Positions 12,290-40,439 of a stretch of DNA of 64,000 bases are shown here, in pieces. Below the pieces are notes generated by a model. The model made no database searches. It was not told where the DNA came from and saw only the letters and a program-made list of their open reading frames with translations. Location of the stretch: positions 109,405,501 to 109,469,500 of the forward strand of contig CP142453.1 in NCBI GenBank assembly GCA_038049695.1, given 5' to 3'. The stretch comes from Cinnamomum chago. Its lineage: Eukaryota > Streptophyta > Magnoliopsida > Laurales > Lauraceae. The first letter of the stretch is position 1. Every line of letters begins with the position of its first letter. The translations under genes and the position numbers were made by a program.

Positions 12290-12886
12290 TTTTTCGATGG
12301 GACTTTGGTCGGAGGTCCCTCAACTCCTCACTTTATTGCGAACAGTCCACAAAAACAAAAGGTCCAGCCAAAGGTCCCTCATACACAATTTGGTACGTAA
12401 AAGGTCTGATTTGCCCTTGCATTCATTCTATCTTTATTAAGATAAGGCCAATGAAAGCGTTACACTCATATCGCAAAAAGACTTTCGAATATTCTGAAAG
12501 AGGAAAGAAACGACGAAGAAGGCAACATTCTCGTCTCTGTGACTGCATACAACGAGTAACAACAGGTTAGATTAAAATTTCAAAAACTTTCCTTAGATTA
12601 ACTGTTTCATTGCAAGTTAGAGTTTGCATCAAAGATATCTTCGATTTCAACAAGAGGTGATACAAGAAAGACGACATACAAACCCTAGTTGCAGAAGACG
12701 GTTCCACAACTGCATAACTATTTCCGAAAGCATACAAATACAGTTCAAAATACTCATTTCCCTTGTAAGTTCAAAGTTTCTCAGTCTTTTTGTTTGGAAA
12801 CCCTATCTTACCGTTAATCGCCGATTTGAATGATTTACTACCATTCTTTCTGCTTCCTCTTCTAATAACGAAAACCAAATCAGGAA

Positions 12887-15800
12887 ATGGTCAGAACGAA
12901 GTCCTCAATTCTTTCAGAAAGCCAGGAGCAAGAGCAACAGAAAGTTGAAGGTATCCAGACAGATTTTTTCTTTTTTTGGCTTATAATGTCTGTCGTTCTT
13001 GTATAAATTAGAAATGTTGAACCAAATGTATAACATTCATTGCTACTTTGTCTGTTTCAAGTAATTTTATCTTAGATTTTTTTTAAAAAAATATCTGAGT
13101 TTATATCAAATTTATCTGTGTCCTGTGCAATTGTATATGTGCTCTGTGTGATGTTGAATCAATGTCTCTTGACTTTATTTGAGATTAAAAGCAAGATAGT
13201 CTGATGCTGGACTGGAAATCCACCAAATCTTTTGTCTATTGCATGAGTTTATCTGAGTTTACATCAAATTTATCTGAGTTTAGATCAATTTTATCTGAGT
13301 TTATATCAAATTTATCTGTGTCCTGTGCAATTGTATCTGTGTTCTGTGTGATGTTGAATCAATGTCTCTTGACTTTATCTGAGATTAAAAGCAATAGAGT
13401 CTGATGCTGGACTGGAAATCCAACAAATCTTTTGTCTATTTCATGAGTTTATCTGAGTTTATATCAAATTTATCTGACTTTAGATCAATTTTATCTGAGT
13501 TTAATTCAAATTTATCTATGTATTGTGCAATTGTATCTGTGTTCTGTGTGATGTTGAATCAATGTCTCTTGACTTTATCTGAGTTTAAAAGCAAGAGAGT
13601 GTGATGCTGGACTAGAAATTCAACAAACCTTTTGTCTATTTCATGAGTTTATCCGAGTTTATATCAAATTTATCTGACTTTCTAACAATTTATCTGAGTT
13701 TAATTTAAATTTATCTGTGTCTTGTGCAATTGTATCTGTGTTCTGTGTTTTGTTGAATCAATGTCTCTTGACTTTATCTGAGATTAAAAGCAAGATAGTC
13801 TGATGCTGGACTGGAAATCCACCAAATCTTTTGTCTATTGCATGAGTTTATCTGAGTTTACATCAAATTTATCTGACTTTCTAACAATTTATTTGAGTTT
13901 AATTTAAATTTATCTGTGTATTGTGCAATTTATCTGTGTTCTGTGTTTTGTTGAATAAATGTCTCCTAACTTTATCTGAGTTTAAAAGCAAGAGAGTGTG
14001 ATGCTGGACTGGAAATTCAACAAACCTTTTGTCTATTTCATGAGTTTATCTGAGTTTATATCAAATTTATCTGACTTTATAACAATTTATCTGAGTTTAA
14101 TATAAATTTATCTGTGTATTGTGCAATTGTATCTTTGTTCTGTATTCAGTTGTTTTAATCTTTTGGTGATATGAATTTGAGTTATTTTACTATATGCAGG
14201 AATAAAACATAACAAGAGAAAAAGGGTGGAAGATAAACCATCAAACAAGAATGAAGTCAGTAAGGACATAAATGATGAGAAGATTAGCGCTCATTACCAG
14301 TTCAGATCAAATTTGGTCTCAACTGTGTCACTGGTCCACAGCATCAAACAAATGGTCACTGAAGTCCACAGAGTTGAATTAAGAAAGACTCCATTCTGGA
14401 GCCTCATAGAATGCATGCTGGCCAACAAAATATCTAAAAAGATGTGCAGAAAGTTTGACAAGGACATTATGTTGATCCTTGATACATACAACACACAGAG
14501 AAGACAATTCAGATTAGGAAGGTCCTACGTGCCATTAACTACAAATGACATATCGCTGATCTTCGACATACCAAACGGAACAAGAGAACTTGATCTAAAA
14601 TATTCAAAAAGGAAAACAATTGAATTCATATCTAGAAGATTCCATGGCTGTTCAAGGGTGTCGGCTCCACAAATAAAGCAACAGCTCCTTCTAGCATTGA
14701 ATGGAGTATCAGAAACTGACATTGCTGATGTTGCTAGGCTACTTTGCCTGTATATCCTTGTCGTACTCTTTTTTGCAACCCATGGAAACACCATAGGATG
14801 GGCATATGTGGGATATGTTGAAAACTATATGGATATGAAGCACTATGCCTGGGCAGAAGAGATTTCAAAGTTTCTCATGGAGTCGATACACAACAGAAGC
14901 CGTGGGTCTGATAGAGTAATTGGTTGCCTTATTACATTACCGGTATGATATACAACTACAAATTTACAAATTTGAATTTCAATATACAAAGATTTATTGA
15001 CCTACATTTATGTTTTATGATTTTGTAACAGTATTGGTTGTGTGAGCATACGACGATCATCAAACCAGATGATTCGGTGCATTTCCCACGAGTACTAAAG
15101 TGGAATCTAAGGGCACTGAGTATGGCACTTAGGAAAAAGGCCCCTTCATTCACTAGTAGCTACTGAGGTATTTTTCACAACTTTCACTGTCTAATTTTAT
15201 TTAAGTTTTTAATCTAACAAGTTCTTTGTAACATTTGTATCAAATGCAGGTCCTTGGGGACGAATTAGATATCACGCTGCTTGAAGTGCAGCGATTACAG
15301 TCCTTGTTGGACAGTGGCGCTAGTGACAAGGAGGTCATGATGGATATAGAAGGAGAGCAACATGATGGCCAAACACACAAAAAGCAAGGAGATGGGGGAG
15401 ACATAGCAGTAGAAGTAGAAGGAGAAAATGTTGATCAAGGAGACGATCAAGAGGATGGAAATGAAAATATCCAGGAAGAATTGGAAGAAGGAGATCAGGG
15501 AGAACAGATGAAAATGATTGAAGCCACCCAACCAGATACAGACATACTGACAGACACGTTGGTTGTATCCAAGTTGGAAGAGCAGCTGCAAAACAGTAAC
15601 AGTGAAGAAACAGATTTCCCTGTTGTGGCAAAACAGTCAATAGCATTTGGTGCAGAGATGGCGGGCTATGAACAGACGTCCCTACAAACAGATTTGCTGG
15701 TTGCAAACATCTTAGCTGACATAATTGGCAGCGCCAGCAACACAGTAAATGAAGAGTCATCTGAAGCACACTCTGGATCCTTACCAGAAGCTGGTGATAC

Positions 15801-18436
15801 ATTGCCTAGTCCTAGACAACAATCACAAACTCCCGAAAACAGCGAGATCAAAACTCTTACTGAGGAGCGTGACAGGGAAAATTCTTTAGTCATCCAACTC
15901 ACTAAGGAGAAGACAGAATTACAAGAGCAGATCCAACGGATGGCTATTGACCTTGAAAGGACGTCGGCCGAAAACAAAAGCATAAAAAAGCAGCGGCTTG
16001 AAACTGAACAAATGATCACCAGCTTGCTAAGAGAAAGAGATGATGCTCTATTGTTGGTTGAGCAATTGACAAAGGAGAAGACTTTGCTTGAAACACACAG
16101 TGTGGACAAAGATCATACTTTAGAGGAGTCAACTCGAATGGTCAGCTCCCTCAAAGAGCAGCTGAAACACACCATCAGTGTGTCAGATATACAGTCCTCG
16201 AGAGCTACGACTGCAGAAAATGAGGTAAAGGGCTTGAAGAAAAAATTGGTTAATCTGGAATCAAACAACTTCAAACTGCAGCAGCTCTTGAGGGAAATGA
16301 CAACTGAATATACAAATAAAGGATTGCAGTGGGCTGGGAAGACTCTAGATGATATCTTCCAGCCTACAAGAAAAACTACTACACGACAGAAAGCAGCGAA
16401 GGAGGCTGCAACTGATCGTAATGTTGCAGAAAATGTACCTGAGGATCTTCAGGTACACGACCATGCTTGTTTAGATAAATTTATCTTTGCATTGAATTCA
16501 TGTTTTGCATATCTATCAAATTTATCTGACTTATGTGTCATTTTATCTGAGTTTATATCAAATTTATCTGACTTATGTGTCATTTTATCTGAGTTTATAG
16601 CAAATTTATCTGACTTTCTAACAATTTATCTGAGTTCTGTATCAAATTTATCTGACTTCTGTGTCATTTTATCTGACTTTCTAACAATTTATCTGAGTTC
16701 TGTATCAAATTTATCTGACTTCTGTGTCATTTTATCTGACTTTCTAACAGGTTATCTGAGTTCTGTATCAAATTTATCTGACTTCTGTGTCATTTTATCT
16801 GACTTTCTAACAATTTATCTGAGATCTGTATCAACTTATAAAACTTTTCATTAAATTTATCTAACTTCTGTATGATTTTATCACACTATCAGCAAATTTA
16901 TCTGATGTTATATGAAAGTTATCTGCCCTACAACAAATTCTAATTTGATTAATCTATATTTTTATAATTGAAATATTGATCAGATCATGCCGTCTGTTGC
17001 ACCATTAAAACCAATTAAGGAGGTGAAACAATCCTCCACGGTGAAACGAATCAAGAAAAGAGCAGCAACGAGGAAAATAAACCCAACAACTGTCCCCTTC
17101 ACACTCCCCAAAAATGCGGTCACTAAGCTTCTGAATGCATCTGACGTAGAGAAGCTAAAGGAGATTTATGAAGCTGAGGGCAATTCGTAAGTCACATACC
17201 TATGCACCTAATCAACACCACTGTTTAATTTAAGAAACCTTAATGAAGATGTAGACTAATTGGGCCCTTTGTGCAATTGGATTTGCAGGGCGCTCGTCTG
17301 GGGAGGTGAGGGGATACAAGTTGTATCTTATGAAGACATAGTAGCAGTTCTCAGCAGAGCAGAAATGTCAAGCATTGTAAGCATCACAACACAGACACAT
17401 TGACAAAATATCCCTACATTTTACACAAACATAATATGGTAGTGTTCAAACAATATGCCTCACATTATGTGTCTCAAATTGAACAGGTTATTGACTGCTA
17501 CGCTGAGTTGCTATATAGAGAACAGAGTGAAATCCAACAGCAACTCACAACTGTCCAACACACAGAAACGCTGCCTCGTGACAAATCGTACTTCGTAACA
17601 AGTTTATGCTGGGTAAAAGACAATAACTGTCTTGACCGTGTCATCATTTACTTTATTTTTATATATAATAAACAGTTACTAAACATGTCTTAATGTAGAA
17701 AATTGTTACTTCCTCGTCGCCGGAAATGAGGGAAAAGATACTGCACCCTCAGATCTCCCCAAGCAGAACTGCAGAACACAGATTCGTGCTTTTTCCAATG
17801 AATTCAAATGGAAAAAGGAAGGATGCCGAACTCTTCCACTGGACACTGTTGGTGCTGGATAAGAAAGAAGGAGATTGGCTACATTACAACCCCTTACGAC
17901 CAAGATCACCTAAAACAGTGGATCATTACTTTGAGGATGCACGACTTCTGGTATGTCTCACTTACATGGTCATTATTTATTCAAAGATACCGTTAGCATA
18001 ATCGAAACTGACCCAAAATACGGAATGTTTTTTTATTCTGCAGAAACAGTATGTGAAGAACTACAATTATATCAATGTTGAGGAGACACAGCCATATGGA
18101 GCTCCATTGACAAGTGTCGAAGACGCCCCACAACAGAAAATGGGCTCGTAAGTATCATTGTGCAACTACAGTAATTCAATTGACTTCACGGTGCCTTACT
18201 TACAATCGACTAACAATATCATGTCCTGTTCCAGTGTTGATTGCGGAGTGATCGTTTGTTATCTTATAAAGCAACTAACTCACAAACAAGTAATTGCTTC
18301 GAAGTTGCCACAACGCGTAATTGACGGATTAAGGGCAGAGATAGTAAGCAAGTTCCTACACGACAAGCATTGCAGCTGGTCAGTTGAAAACTACCAAGCC
18401 AGGCAACTAGCTGCTAATGATGACTTCGAAAACTGA
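12887..18436 (+). CDS. MULE-encoded ULP1-like cysteine protease (C48), ten exons, one frameshift
   Basis: Exons, read from GT-AG sites and frame continuity: 12887-12950, 14200-14942, 15032-15167, 15250-16452, 16984-17186, 17289-17376, 17487-17612, 17699-17950, 18044-18147, 18235-18436. The product is about 1,040 aa. Exon 2 encodes a domain like the plant DUF1985/mobile-domain group (FRLGRSYVPLTTNDISLIF). Exon 4 encodes an acidic region, then a long coiled coil (Leu/Glu/Lys heptads). Exons 8-10 encode the peptidase C48 core: the catalytic His in HWTLLVLD, then LHYNPL (Asn where Asp is common), Gln in QQKMGS, and the catalytic Cys in VDCGVIVC. Family members cleave SUMO or related proteins; the role within the transposon is unknown. 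Exon 3 contains an in-frame TGA (15164-15166). Total exon length is one base over a multiple of three, so a single-base insertion near the donor is likely. Introns 1 and 4 contain 21-bp repeat arrays. Confidence 0.82.
13090..14150 (+). repeat. Repeat array A: about 199-bp tandem units built of 21-bp subunits
   Basis: The word TGATGCTGGACT recurs at 13202, 13402, 13602, 13801 and 13999, giving a 198-200 bp period and about five and a half units. Inside each unit, TTTATCTGAGTT and TTTATCTGACTT recur every 21 bases. The array fills most of intron 1 of the ULP1 gene. It belongs to the same 21-bp family as the arrays near 16.5, 18.7, 22.0 and 39.8 kb. Confidence 0.93.
16500..16890 (+). repeat. Repeat array B: 21-bp repeats in ULP1 intron 4
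   Basis: About 16 head-to-tail copies of a 21-mer alternate between TTTATCTGACTTATGTGTCA, TTTATCTGAGTTTATATCAA and TTTATCTGACTTTCTAACAA types. Higher-order units of about 63 bp are visible. The array lies between the exon 4 donor (16453) and exon 5 acceptor (16983). Because 21 is a multiple of three, the exon 4 frame stays open through the array for 133 more codons (stop 16852-16854), coding heptads such as LSDFCVI. Confidence 0.92.
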
Positions 18437-19640
18437 CGAAAAAACTACAACAATGATACAAACAAGTTCTTTTCAATCAAGTTGATGTATTTTATGTAAA
18501 TCTCTTTATATGAAAAGTGAAAGTTCAACAGACTTGTGAATGTATTTTTTTTGTTCACATGAAGGTTGTACAAACATTTCTGTCAATGTAATTCTCACAT
18601 TTGTTAATGAATGTAAATAGAATTATTTCTGTCAATGTCTTCGTACATCAGCACTATGCAATCTATTATTCTAATTTCTGGTGGAATTTTAACTGACTTC
18701 TGATAGAAATTCTCTGATTTCTGACTGAGATCATCTACGTTTTGGATGAAATTATCTAGGTTCTAATTTTCATTATCTGACTTCTGAATCAAATTGTCTG
18801 AGTTTTGTATGAAATTATCTGATTTTAGATGAAATTATCTGACTTCTGAATCAAATTACCTGGTTCATAGATGAAATTATCTGACTTATATATGAAATTA
18901 TATGAGTCCTGGATGAAATTATCTGACTCATGGTTGAAATTATCTGACTTCTGCATCAATTTATCTGAGTCATGGGTGAAATTATCTGAGTTCTGACTCA
19001 AATTATCTGAGTACTGGGTGAAATTATTTGAGTTCTTACTCAAATTATCTGAGTCCTGGGTGAAATTATCTAACTCATGGATGAAATTATCTGAGTACTG
19101 GGTGAAAATATCTGACTTATGAATGAATTTATCTGACTTCTGAATCAAATTATCCGAGTCATATGGGAAATTATCTGAGTTCTGACTCTAATTTATCTGA
19201 CTCATGGATGAATTTATCTGACTCATGGATGAAATTATCTGAGTCCTGGGTGAAATTATCTGACTTATGAATGAAATTATCTGACTTCTGAATCAAGTTA
19301 TCTGAGTCCTGGGTGAAATTATCTGACTCAAGAGTGAATTTATCTGAGTCTAGATTGAAATTATCTGAGTTCTGCTACATATTTAGCAGGGTAATGTGAT
19401 TGCTCTGTCTAGCTAATGATTCCAGATAATCTCAGCTCTAATGCAATTTCAATATCAATTTTGAACAATGACTAAATGAGTTAGACACATTTTGAAAGTA
19501 ATTACTTATAAAAGCAAGACCACATTAATCAACATTAAAGGGAATGTCAATTTGACCTTTTTATTCACTAATCAGAATTACATCAGATGTATCAACAATA
19601 TTACACCTAACCTAAATTCAATATCTAATTCAATGAAATG
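18437..19640. repeat. Repeat array C between the convergent MULE-1 genes
   Basis: From about 18700 to 19375 roughly 30 copies of a 21-bp repeat occur, centred on GAAATTATCTGACTCATGGAT with G/C variation after CTGA. The array lies in the convergent gap where both transcripts end. On the minus strand it leaves a 107-codon open frame of the heptad SDNFxxx, which I regard as a by-product of the period. The flanking bases (18437-18700 and 19376-19640) are probably the two 3' UTRs. Confidence 0.92.
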
Positions 19641-21913
19641 TCAAAGAAGAGTCTCCTTGCACGATTTTTTATTGTGGCTGCCAATCCGACCACACCTCCC
19701 ACATTTTATCTGCCGTGTGACCTCCCCTCTTGACAAGATCCTCTTTTTTTTCGGCCTGCCAGCTGGTCGTTTAACAACAGGTGGGAGAATAACGACTTCA
19801 TCGCCTTTTGTCTCTGGCATTCCCACGGTTGGAATTGGGAAAATCTGCTCTTCATACGAAGCCCTATATGTATGAGTGTGAAAATAATGATCAACAAAGA
19901 CATTCAATTCCTTTCCACTCTTTTGGATCGCCGCACAAGCATGGGCGCAGGGGAACCCATTGATCTGCTACTGATAACACGAACATATGTGATTAAAAAT
20001 GTCAACCGTCACTGACGGGTAAGAATGCACATCGAAAACAGTTTCACTCGAACGGCTGACCGTCCACGTCCTTCCAAGCCGGATAGCAGCATCAAGCCTC
20101 TTATCCATGTCCGGACAGATGACTGACTTCCATCTGCTGGAAGCTTCCTTCCTACTAGCCATCTGCTCCATTATTTGAACCCTTATTGTGTCAACCATCT
20201 TTGTAATTGGAAGATGGCGAGCTTCTCTAATCCATGAGTTGAAAGACTCAGCAGCATTCGAACACATCTCACCATACCGCTGCCCCTTAAAATATGCATT
20301 GCTCCATCTATCATGAGGCAATCCACAGAGAAATTTATCTACATTAGAACCACCTTCACGCCTCAACGACTGCAGCTTTGCATGGAAGGCAGGGATAGTT
20401 GGCGCATATGCACATTCCCGCAACATCATAACCATTCTCTCTTTAAATGCATTAGTGTAACCACCAGACAACTTGTCCCTCAAATTTGCCTTAAGGTGTT
20501 GGAGGCAATATGCATGATGGGCAAAATGAAATACCTTTGATACAGCCTCTATCAGACCTGGATTTCTGTCAGAAACAAATGTAATAGTGCGATCTGACAT
20601 AATAATTTTCCTTAAATTCTGCAGAAACCATGTCCAATTGTCCTCTGTCTCTGAGTCCACTACCGCAAAAGCAAGGGGGAACAAACCTGTCCCATGAATT
20701 AACAATTTTTTATATTTCTGATACTATTCAGAAAATCAAAACATGCTGATCATTAGTATAAATATAAATAAATGGGTCAATAATATCAGAAAAAACAGCA
20801 TTACAACTTACCTTGATTCTCATTCTTCCCCGTTGCTGCCAACAGGGTTCCCTTGTATCTGCCCTTTAAGAAAGTACCGTCCAGAAATAATAAAGGACGA
20901 ACATGGTTAAAACCAGCAATTAAAGCATAGAACGACACAAAGAGACGCTTGAAACACATAGTTGATTGGTCATAATCTAGCACAAAGAGGCTTCCTGGAT
21001 TTACCTCCTCCGCCACCTTAATATACCAGCGAACATGGTCAAAAGATAGCGACGAATCACCATACAGCTTATTTCTAGCCCTTTCCACACCCCACCATGC
21101 ATGATGATATGTAATGGTAAGTCCATAATTTGCCTTAAAGTGGTGCACAATATCAATGGGTCTGGTGAGCGGCTTCTCACGGATATGTTCCACTATTAAA
21201 TCTGCAACTGTCTCAGAATTCATACGGCTGTTCTTTGACGTTCGAACTGCTGCACCACATGTATGCTCATTGTTTAATGTCCTGATACAAAAATGGCCAC
21301 TAGACTTTTCAATAGATGCATGAACACGCCATCTGCATCCCATCGAATGACTGCGAGAGCATTCAGCTGTCACCCTCACCTTATCATTTTTCACATATAC
21401 AAATTCAAACCCAACCTCAATTGAATATCTGCACAATGCACTTCTAAACTCCCCAACACCGCCCTCAAACCTCTGCCCCACATCTCTAATACCACTTGCC
21501 CAGCCGGAAGACAGCAACATCTTCTCCTTGTGGGTACAAAACTGTGGAAGAAGATCTGTTTGTATATCTATATCCTCGTACCCCACTAATGGTAGGGCAT
21601 CTTCAGCTAAATGATCACCAATTTCCTCTTGATCATCGTCCTCCGATTCCTGCGATTCTGATACAAATACATCAACTGTCCCCAATCCCATTGAAGAAGC
21701 CAGCATGGACAAGCTCATTATATCCGAATCGTTGTCCAGCAAGCACTTTGGGTGGCCAGGCAACGCATAAGTAAAACAAACCATGTTCATTGTAAGATTT
21801 CTCCACTTGTTACAAACTTGACGCATCAAACCATCATAGCTCATACCCCGACTCAAATGAATAACAGCCGTAAGCATGCCATACTTACAGAGAAGCAATA
21901 ACGGCTGTGACAT
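19641..21913 (-). pseudogene. MURA transposase of MULE-1, intact except for one in-frame stop
   Basis: Exon A (21913-20812) ends AATCAAG before GTAAGT; exon B (20686-19641) follows GGGACAG. The join reads GKNENQGLFPLAFAVV. The frame is 714 codons before the terminal stop. In order it has an acidic N-terminal region, the MuDR DNA-binding domain (KVRVTAECSRSHSMGCRWRV to HTCG), and the MULE transposase core with putative DDE residues in FLDGTFLKGRYKG, FVSDRNPG and NAAESFNSW. A SWIM zinc finger (CSC to FPCAHAC) and a C-terminal CCHC knuckle (CGRCGRIGSHNKKSC) follow. A TAG at 19968-19970 (codon 607) falls inside the SWIM motif where Trp is usual, so a single TGG-to-TAG change would explain it. A 5' UTR intron (donor 22844, acceptor directly before the ATG) is likely and contains array D. 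The truncated product would keep the catalytic core but lose the zinc fingers. Confidence 0.88.
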
Positions 21914-21964
21914 CTATAAAACAGCAAGATTCAATGGATATAAATGGTTACTATCATTGCCCAA

Positions 21965-22345
21965 ATTGTACATGACTCAGATAAATGTTGGCTCTAACTC
22001 AGATATATTGTACATGACTCAAATAAATTGTACATAACTCAGATAAATTTTAGCTCTGAACTCAGATAAATTGTACATAACTCAGATAATTTTTGGCTTT
22101 GAACTCAGATAAATTGTACATAACACAGATAAATTGTACACAACTCAGATAAATTGTACATGACTCAGATAAATTTTGGCTCTGAACTCAGATAAATTGT
22201 ACATAACTCAGATAAATTTTGGCTCTCAACTCAGATAAATTGTCCATAACACAGATAAATTGTAGACAACTCAGATAAATTGTACATAACTCAAATGAAT
22301 TCAATACAGAAATCAGATATTGTGTATAGAACTCAGATAAAATTA
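21965..22345 (-). repeat. Repeat array D upstream of MURA
   Basis: About 18 copies of a 20-22 bp repeat alternate ACTCAGATAAATTGTACATA and ACTCAGATAAATTTTGGCTC. On the minus strand these read TTTATCTGAGTT, the same core as arrays A-C. The array lies in the predicted 5' UTR intron of the MURA gene (22844-21914), just inside the right half of MULE-1. Confidence 0.92.
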
Positions 22346-23343
22346 CACAAACTACGATTTGTCTGATTAACAGTCTGATAAATTTCATGCTAAAAGCCAA
22401 ATATCTTAGATTACATTACTTCTTTCACAATGCAGCTCTGAAATAAGACCGGTAAATAAGTCAGGCTCTAGCTAATCTAAATGCATGACCATCAAATCAT
22501 TTCTACATCAACTGAGCTGATACAAATTGAATACTTCATCACCAACAAAACTAAAGAAACCTAACTATCAAAACTCGAAAAGAAAAATGAAAAACTTCAC
22601 GTCCATATAAAAGATAGAACTGCTACACAAAAGCTAGATCTGAAATCAACTTCACTTCCATATAAAAGATAGAACTGCTACACAAAAGTTAGATCTGAAA
22701 TCTGTTATACAGTAAATCAAACTACACAGCTAAAACCCAATAAGAATAGAACTGAGCATGCGCATCAGATATATATATGGATATCTACACATTCAAATAA
22801 CAAGAACTGCATAATCTCTGATGTATACAGAAAAAATCGCTTACCTCATAAAAGATGAATCCCTTCCCAACGTTTGAATCTGGTTTCTGCTTCCAAGCGA
22901 ATGAACTGTTTCCCAGCCAATCAATATACGAGACTATAATCCAATTACAATAGAACTCCTACCAAAAGTTTGACCTGCAATCTGCTTCGCAAACAATGAA
23001 TCTCTCTCTCGTTAGGTTTCTACATTCAGATTCAGTATCATAACCGATTGCAGGTTTAGATTCAAAAAACGAGATCTGCGCTGGATGACAGGGGCATATC
23101 AGTAATAACTTCCCCACTTATGCACTTAAATCGTGGCTAAATAATCGTAACACGTTAGGGACCACTCCACTCCATGCTGCGACGGTTACAGGGGTAAATT
23201 AGTCTTAACAATTGACACCGTGTGGATAGAGGGACCTTAGGCTGCAAACATCTTAACTGCTTGGACCAGAGGCTTTAAAAAGAATCCGCCTGGACTGGAG
23301 GCTGGAAACATTCCATTCGAGGGACCTTTCGCTAATTAATCCA
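22346..23343 (-). promoter_or_regulatory. Right terminal region and putative MURA promoter of MULE-1
   Basis: This segment holds the presumed MURA promoter and first untranslated exon (donor GAG|GTAAGC at 22845/22844). A direct repeat lies at about 22602-22644 and 22650-22692 (TCCATATAAAAGATAGAACT, ACACAAAAGCTAGATCTGAA), a near-exact 48-bp duplication. The terminal 150 bp carries the right TIR with GGTCCCTC blocks. No coding frame is seen. Confidence 0.6.
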
Positions 23344-39068: not shown

Positions 39069-40439
39069 TGGATAAATTAGCGAATGGTCCCTTAACTTTG
39101 CCATTTGAAGGCTCTAGTCCACGAGAGTTTCATTTAAGGCATGTAGTTGATGTAGTTGGACATATTTCAACCAGAGGTCCCTAAATGCGCATCACACATT
39201 GGTTTGACTAATTTGCCCATGTAACTGCCTCAACACGTCGCGCATAATCGTCTGAACATATCATGCATTTGTAGCCTTCGTTTTTTTTTTTTTTTGCGCA
39301 TAAGTATGATTCTTTATGACTGATTTGCCCCTGTAATTTCTTATAGATCAAGTTTTGAATTTCAAATGATAATGACAATCGATAATGATATGTGTGTAAA
39401 ATCTCCTTTCTAAAAGAAATTCATATGCACTCGTTCTAGGCGTGGGATAGATTCTACGACCTTTGAGTTTTCAAAGTAGACTTCTGTGAGGGACAACATA
39501 TTATGCGACCTTTTTAGTTTAATATAGCATCTGTAATTCGAATAAAAAAAATAAGGTTCAGATCAATCCAAATCAAAGTAATAGCATTGAGATGATTTAG
39601 ATTTCAATCTATATCCCACAATCTTCTTTCTTCTTGTTTTTTCAATCCGGATGATCAATCTATATCCCACAATCTTCTTTCTTCTCGTTTTTTCAATCCG
39701 GATGAACAAGGAGAAGCTCTGTTAGAATTCTCATATTTCAACGAAAGAAGAGCTTTTTACGATGCAACGTCGGATCAATTTATTTGAGTTTTGGAATAAA
39801 TTTATCTGAGTTTTGCACAAATTTAATCCGAGTCTTTTGACAATTTTATTTGATTCATTGAACAAATTTATCTATGTTTTGGACAAATTAATCTTATTTA
39901 TGGAAACCATTTATCTGAGTTCTACAATAATTTATCCGAGTTTGCGATAGACAGATAGATCGGATTCCAACACGATAAAGGTTTGCAAATGAGAAAATAT
40001 TCAACTTACTTGTTTTGGAATGAGTGAATGTTAATGGTTTGTACAAGGAGATGCCTGGACTGGTCTAGATTATGTATCTTGTTGGGTTCGAAATCAAACA
40101 AACCACTTCCGCAACCACTAAATGGACATTGAAACTGTTTATTTGAAGATGTTACTAATGCTTGCGGCTCTCTAAGGGAATCTCCTTCCTCGATTCACTT
40201 TCCCTCCTTCTTCCTGCGCTTGATGTTCAAAATATCTAATTCATCGCTTTCGTTCGTTTTTTGGCAAGTTACCGGGATTTTAGGCGTAGCGTTTTTTATT
40301 TAAGTGATAAGAGATTACGAGGGGCATTATTGTCCTTTCAAGTATATGAAGCGATGGAAGGGACATTTGCCTCTACGAATTTAATTCATGAACCGTTTGC
40401 AATAAAAACCAAAGTTAAGGGGCCTTCGGCCAAGCACCA
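39069..40439. mobile_element. Non-autonomous MULE related to MULE-1, carrying a 21-bp repeat array
   Basis: The left end TGGATAAATTAGCGAATGG runs into GGTCCCTTAACTTTG. The right end, reverse-complemented, is TGGTGCTTGGCCGAAGG and runs into GCCCCTTAACTTTGG. Both match the MULE-1 termini in layout, and an inner block GACTAATTTGCCCATGTAAC matches MULE-1's GACTAATTTACCCCTGTAAC. There is no transposase or protease gene. Inside lie a perfect-phase 51-bp tandem duplication (39604-39654 and 39655-39705) and a degenerate TTTATCTGAGTT array (39775-39945). A convincing TSD was not found. It is probably mobilised by MULE-1-type transposase. Confidence 0.72.
39775..39945 (+). repeat. Repeat array E: 21-22 bp TTTATCTGAGTT repeats
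   Basis: About eight degenerate copies, for example TTTATTTGAGTTTTGGAATA, TTTATCTGAGTTTTGCACAA and TTTATCTATGTTTTGGACAA. The core and spacing are those of arrays A-D in MULE-1, about 27 kb away. It lies near the centre of the non-autonomous MULE, on the same strand sense as MULE-1 array A. Confidence 0.82.

Follow-up and report, generated by a model that had tools for sequence, protein, structure and literature searches.

The closest described systems are the VANDAL transposons, MULEs in which, according to passages of Hosaka 2017 (PMC5735166), the words bound by VANC proteins are arranged in tandem repeats in introns, intergenic regions and upstream regions. The same passages give YAGTATTAY as the Arabidopsis VANC21 word and AGTTGTCC/AGTTGTAC as VANC6 words, and DUF1985 is shown there for the VANC proteins. 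A section of a review (PMC13317346) describes VANCs that carry Ulp1 and act on motifs of their own family. In parts of Ikeda 2017 (PMC5418596), Plant Mobile Domains are found fused to MULE transposases, with an anti-silencing role that is only speculated, and two silencing proteins of the host, MAIN and MAIL1, also contain the domain.

Here we describe MULE-1, a transposon of Cinnamomum chago whose predicted non-coding parts carry dense arrays of one word. As in the VANC/VANDAL system, in the passages of PMC5735166 that concern it, arrays of words in one orientation lie in the introns of an accessory gene, upstream of the transposase and in intergenic DNA, the word is enriched in one MULE family and differs in related families, and repeat units are rapidly gained and lost; the placement of the MULE-1 arrays matches that of the VANC21 targets. 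The preliminary description of this locus knew of no account of such a pattern, which does not hold for the kind, since arrays of VANDAL words are described in those passages. The Ulp1-carrying VANC genes Kaonashi and KIU likewise combine a MULE, a C48/Ulp1 gene and family-specific non-coding motifs (PMC13317346, in the section cited). Unlike VANC/VANDAL, MULE-1 has other words, DUF1985 was not found and the C48-type accessory gene is convergent with MURA; binding and hypomethylation, shown for the Arabidopsis system, are putative in MULE-1. Because DUF1985 was sought in most of the gene and not found, we liken MULE-1 to a VANC target set in the way it would work and do not call it a VANDAL.

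The window, the whole stretch of 64,000 nucleotides that was analysed, corresponds to C3:109405501-109469500 of the 1.06-Gb genome, and all positions below are window positions (Table 1). MULE-1 is flanked by a 10-bp target duplication, ATTTTTCGAT / ATTTTTCAAT, with 9/10 identical positions. Its terminal repeats appear degenerate and have in common only a short stretch centred on GGTCCCT, a word that is reiterated in inverted sense at the termini and has no copy elsewhere in the element. The ULP1/C48-type gene and MURA are convergent, their exons and introns being predictions from open reading frames and splice motifs. The Peptidase_C48 match of the former (E 0.0087, 16.3 bits) is below the Pfam cut-off of 20.7, while MURA contains the Mutator DNA-binding domain PF03108 (E 1.5e-16) and the MULE transposase domain PF10551 (E 8.3e-12). 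Both genes are interrupted by in-frame stops, at 15164-15166 in the ULP1-type gene, where exon 3 ends, and at 19968-19970 in a part of MURA judged by eye to be the SWIM region; thus, this copy of MULE-1 looks inactivated.

Table 1 Features of MULE-1 and of its short relative E2 in the window.
Feature	Position	Strand	Basis or remark
MULE-1, whole element	12299..23342	.	10-bp target duplication and inverted GCGAAAGGTCCCT-like ends
GGTCCCT words at the left terminus of MULE-1 (n=2)	12314..12379	+	
GGTCCCT words at the right terminus of MULE-1 (n=3)	23157..23326	-	
ULP1/C48-type gene, multi-exon (predicted)	12887..18434	+	Open reading frames, splice motifs, weak Peptidase_C48 match
MURA transposase gene, two coding exons predicted	19641..21913	-	Pfam domains and open reading frames
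Array 1, ULP1 intron 1 (12951-14199)	13092..14143	+	Higher-order repeat of ~200 bp; 17 exact cores within intron 1
Array 2, ULP1 intron 4 (16453-16983)	16514..16905	+	16 exact cores
Array 3, gap separating the convergent ULP1-type gene and MURA	18689..19374	+	22 exact cores
Array 4, predicted intron (21914-22844) preceding the start codon of MURA	21963..22341	-	12 exact cores
E2, short non-autonomous relative of MULE-1, 1.37 kb	39070..40438	.	
Array 5, inside E2	39777..39943	+	Tandem Repeats Finder

The four arrays of MULE-1, delimited by Tandem Repeats Finder, are built from a repeat unit of 20-23 bp with the core TTATCTGA(G/C)TT. The degenerate word TTATCTGASTT, with at most one mismatch, has 84 matches in the window, compared with a mean of 4.07 in shuffled sequence (largest value 10; none of 100 shuffles reaches 84), and these are distributed as 78 in the four arrays, 4 in array 5 and 2 elsewhere. 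All 67 exact TTATCTGA cores of the element fall in the two ULP1 introns, the gap and the intron of the MURA 5'UTR; none was found in the 4,959 bases listed as predicted exons, nor in the mixed exon/intron stretch at 17191-18434. The remaining 51.6 kb of the window, outside MULE-1 and E2, contain two. Each MULE-1 array has a single core orientation, and the three intronic ones are all in sense orientation as far as the introns are predicted, the cores of array 4 lying on the minus strand, sense to MURA. The preliminary description is thereby confirmed in the existence and the sites of the four arrays and in the freedom of the predicted exons from them, and its view that one word has grown at separate non-coding sites of a single element, suggestive of protein-binding sites, slippage or recombination, stands as well. 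Its list was nevertheless incomplete, as it missed array 5 in E2. A separate feature of the MURA 5'UTR intron is a 55-bp direct duplication at 22593-22702 (96% match), which is unlike the 21-bp family.

The tandem unit is real, but the period of 20-22 bp first given for it describes the arrays only in part: in array 1 units 20-21 bp apart are interrupted by longer gaps of 42-74 bp within the higher-order repeat, and the spacing in array 4 is 20-23 bp. Similarly, the core is common to the arrays as proposed, yet the spacers do not simply differ, for much of the 21-bp consensus is common too: wraparound alignment gives closely similar consensus sequences for all five arrays, near CAAATTTATCTGAGTTCTGTA. 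The most conserved block in the arrays holds most or all of the core. In a column permutation of core against the rest, only array 4 gives a clear result (10/5000), and the corresponding counts for arrays 1, 2, 3 and 5 are 974, 323, 191 and 2761. Between copies, divergence amounts to 43/984 in words and 372/2444 in spacers, a comparison confounded by the alignment of non-orthologous units through unit turnover. An open reading frame runs from the intron 4 donor 133 aa into array 2 in the MULE-1 of the window; array 2 was rejected as coding sequence, as the open frame stops after 61 aa in a young copy (L030+L031). In L009 the donor string has no exact match.

VANC words are reported to act through helical periodicity (Sasaki 2022, EMBO J). 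In MULE-1, the distances from one core to another have peaks at 10.5 and 21 bp. We rejected this as independent evidence for helical phasing, because a peak at 10.5 bp is the harmonic expected of any 21-bp repeat, and only the 74-bp spacing (and 95 = 74+21) favours phasing at 10.5 bp. Over distinct spacings in other MULEs with a C48 gene, treated below, the mean cosine at 10.5 bp is 0.36 in L045, 0.34 in L046 and 0.49 in L049, the spacings being too few in L047, L048 and L052. Taken together, this is a weak hint of helical phasing of the words.

E2, the second element in the window, has two ends that both align to those of MULE-1, its left 357 bp showing 62% identity to the right end of MULE-1 (E 4.6e-18); no target duplication was recognised around it. 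Array 5 is closest to array 4 (73.7%), and both point the same way when viewed from the end that E2 and MULE-1 have in common.

We then assessed the distribution of the word in the genome. The 12-mer TTTATCTGAGTT has 12,344 exact matches, compared with 288 for the reversed control. By our own grouping, the first 100 places listed form 22 clusters on C1, of which 18 were fetched. One of them is a sister MULE-1 that is 94-96% identical outside the arrays and has kept all four, and its MURA is interrupted by an insertion. (At C1:29001-38500, L010, we observed an insertion of ~8 kb in the MURA of a sister MULE-1.) All other 17 clusters have at least one end of the MULE-1 family within 1.3 kb of a core, and 11 of these have both family ends, facing each other, one end in L014 matching at only E 0.017. 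The two family ends were represented by profiles of six ends each, which gave no match in 13 control pieces of 128 kb in total. Since L015, L019, L021 and L024 themselves supplied ends to the profiles, the result without them is 13/13, and with L022/L025/L027 and L023/L026/L028 being copies of larger repeats, the clusters amount to about nine independent groups. Target duplications of 9 bp are present without mismatch in L019, L021 and L024 and with 8/9 identical positions in L015, the boundaries being chosen freely and lying partly in T-runs. No match to MURA or ULP1 at 1e-4 was obtained in any of these 17 clusters. Thus, the word is common genome-wide, an observation that the preliminary description would have counted against its proposal if made outside the family, and in the 18 sampled of the 22 listed clusters it always accompanies one MULE family, being retained in short copies without MURA or ULP1 matches.

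The word is also present in every sister copy examined, contrary to the absence from all sisters that the same description would have counted as a refutation. A search with MURA, in which 111 of 1,678 first-look candidates were scored, returned matches 81-100% identical. Sixteen further sister copies, namely 14 short stretches, L030 and L011, with a MURA about 81-97% identical, all carry units before the MURA start, in numbers of 5-22 and with varying spacing. In seven of the sixteen, the 5-10 units counted with at most two mismatches exceed the 0-5 on the opposite strand by little, and there the claim rests on the spacing of 20-23 bp, not on the count. All four arrays are present in the young copy L030+L031. 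Eleven of the MURA matches listed agree exactly in E-value and in score (819.6), as a recent burst within one sub-lineage would lead one to expect; such a burst has apparently taken place, with L030, L032 and L033 as members that retain the arrays. Units are gained and lost between related copies while the word persists.

If the arrays are targets of a reader encoded by the element, other C48 MULEs should carry other words at corresponding places. Genome searches with PF03108 and PF02902 (150 scored matches each) gave many convergent pairs 3-4 kb apart, and nine C48 MULE copies were fetched (L045-L052 and L053+L055). Their MURA is ~26-33% identical to that of MULE-1 in the longer alignments, and TTATCTGA occurs in them not at all or once each. 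All nine have the layout C48 gene, gap array, MURA, with tandem arrays between the convergent genes, and eight have a clear word of their own: CCGATATCGG has 23 sites in L045, GGGATATCCC 21 in L046, CGATATCGAC 4-10 in each of L047/49/50/51/52 and AAGGTCATC 13 in L048, each with no site in the rest of the nine. The exception is L053+L055, which has a gap array and no clear word. The table of words by lineage is this clean when the words have 9-10 letters. The shorter CGATATCG is found 23 times in L045, 3-6 times in the L047 group and once in L053+L055. The repeat units are 22/96 bp in L045, 33/52 bp in L046 and 21/98 bp in the L047 group.

Seven of the nine copies have the gap word again upstream of MURA, usually in the form of a pair of sites 21-22 bp from each other and, in L046, as one exact site and one changed site 33 bp away; it was not found there in the stretches fetched for L048 and L053+L055. 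Homology between L049 and L050 extends past these upstream sites and ends about 130-180 bp further, which places the sites inside the element in these two copies. GATATC is enriched in L045 (29) and L046 (27), with about 3 expected. The words of L045 and the L047 group both contain CGATATCG and differ in their outer letters, although the MURA of L045 is 82-83% identical to those of L047 and L049. Three of the words are thus variants round one centre, a point that speaks for common descent and for a GATATC code alike. Tandem Repeats Finder at a score of at least 40 detects in the 5-kb L054, a control presumed to lack a C48 gene, 2.1 copies of a 12-bp repeat and an (AT)n run and nothing else, which is weak as a single case; L053 was discarded as a second control of this kind when it was found to have C48.

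Further observations were made on these lineages. Dozens of PF03108 matches are listed with the same score of 59.6, many of them in 714-aa open frames like that of L045, and apparently represent a second recent burst, in a Plant Mobile Domain lineage. In the gap arrays of L047-L052, AGTTGT is enriched (13-31, with 3.6-6.6 expected). This 6-mer of the L047 group and L048 resembles the VANC6 words, a likeness that is only a lead and may be due to chance, as a unit of ~100 bp often has a given 6-mer by chance. At 4690-4821 of L053, between MURA and C48, there is a 54-bp repeat with the palindrome GTGACGACATCGTCAC.

A candidate reader is present in four of the nine C48 MULE copies. The Plant Mobile Domain (PF10536) was identified in L045, L046, L047 and L049, which represent three word classes, at E 6e-40 to 5e-45. 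Its open reading frame lies upstream of C48 on the C48 strand, convergent with MURA, as opposed to the fusions of the domain with the MULE transposase in the cited part of PMC5418596; the Plant Mobile Domain exons and the C48 exons would form one gene. L048 has a relative of this frame (35.6% identity, E 5e-25), and the C48 domain of L045 and L046 (E 1.6e-9) is above the Pfam cut-off. DUF1985 was found neither in five pieces of the MULE-1 C48 gene, covering most of it outside exons 1 and 3, at E up to 10, nor, at E up to 0.1, in nine pieces from L045, L046, L047 and L049. The part of MULE-1 that corresponds to the Plant Mobile Domain frame has no credible Pfam match, and its hhalign probability for the domain is 2.9%. 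On the other hand, blastp of MULE-1 against L047, run in a very small set, gives E 0.002 across 60 aa, and in likeness to the domain sister copies rank 1-2 of 487 open reading frames (E 0.017-0.033) and MULE-1 ranks 12 (E 1.6), so that a kinship of the MULE-1 N-terminal part with the Plant Mobile Domain is suggestive at best. Fold predictions for the Plant Mobile Domain part (4 rows) and the MULE-1 N-terminal part (2 rows) had a mean pLDDT of 37 and were set aside.

Several other explanations have to be weighed. The arrays may be neutral minisatellites, produced by slippage in the low-constraint introns and gaps of a high-copy transposon, with gene conversion seeding further arrays and no protein reading them; the wide variation of unit number among sisters, an exact 36-mer common to arrays 1 and 2 and a column permutation that is clearly significant in one of five arrays agree with this. 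However, slippage alone sits poorly with the presence of the same lineage word at separated sites with different repeat units in L045, L046 and the L047 group, with the use of different words by different lineages and with the keeping of the word in short copies, and we regard it as unlikely. Recognition of the word as an iteron by MURA transposase or by some accessory factor of transposition, the transposase reading having already been offered in the preliminary description, would fit the word's retention in short elements without MURA or ULP1 matches, as well as the small word array about 130-180 bp inside the end of homology in L049 and L050. It is less supported as far as the transposase is concerned, because the termini of MULE-1 reiterate a different word, inverted GGTCCCT, and no core lies within 400 bp of either end; moreover, the majority of the MULE-1 sites are in the gap or in ULP1 introns, and the outer letters of the words differ between L045 and L047/L049 in spite of their similar MURA. 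We consider this distinctly improbable.

Host-factor sites or RNA-level elements that boost expression of the transposon genes would explain why three of the four MULE-1 arrays lie in predicted introns, all in sense, and why GATA or TATC occurs in four of five lineage words; these could be GATA-factor sites, AGATAA being part of the core, intron enhancers or branch points (CTGAC). One array, though, is in the gap beyond both genes, the lineage words have no common fixed site longer than GATA, and the L048 word is without GATA, all of which makes this explanation very unlikely. Finally, the arrays could be sources or targets of small RNAs in host silencing of the family, as suggested by their tandem structure, by the opposite orientation of array 4 and by the targeting of the same non-coding VANDAL regions by RdDM, reported in a portion of PMC10398659. 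Since arrays are retained in members of the apparently recent burst and the 25 longest inverted pairs are only 72-89% complementary, we give this the least credence of all as an explanation in itself, while noting that it is compatible with the reading we prefer.

Weighing these data, we consider that the arrays are probably dense recognition sites for a protein encoded by the element, most likely the ULP1/C48-type product, with a VANC-like anti-silencing function. The putative protein of the C48 gene would bind the word within non-coding DNA of its own family and clear silencing there, allowing MURA and the C48 gene to be expressed, and non-autonomous relatives that keep the word would be released from silencing as well. 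Each MULE lineage would have its own word, amplified by tandem duplication and by copying between sites. We infer the C48-gene protein as the reader, its binding and its removal of methylation; the confinement of the arrays to predicted non-coding parts and the lineage-specific words are observed here.

The comparison of lineages further suggests, tentatively, that proteins with a Plant Mobile Domain and C48 could be a second, DUF1985-independent class of transposon anti-silencing factors, reading palindromes in which the centre, GATATC, is constant and the flanks depend on the lineage (CC-GATATC-GG, GG-GATATC-CC and TC-GATATC-GA). Several orthogonal codes would then coexist in one genome, the TTATCTGA of MULE-1 being another; this we see as a serious possibility that falls somewhat short of likely. 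As far as our searches reach, these words and the Plant-Mobile-Domain/C48 lineages with such arrays are new, the kind being already known from VANDAL, and among open-licence papers we came across no account of lineage-specific word arrays in Plant-Mobile-Domain/C48 MULEs.

If this interpretation is correct, sequence-specific anti-silencing by MULEs would extend beyond VANCs of the DUF1985 type, and several word codes would be present in a single genome together with candidate readers, some of which have a Plant Mobile Domain. The speculation in the cited part of PMC5418596 that Plant Mobile Domains captured by MULEs serve to counter silencing would become directly testable, and pairs of a protein and its DNA word would be available for targeted epigenome editing.
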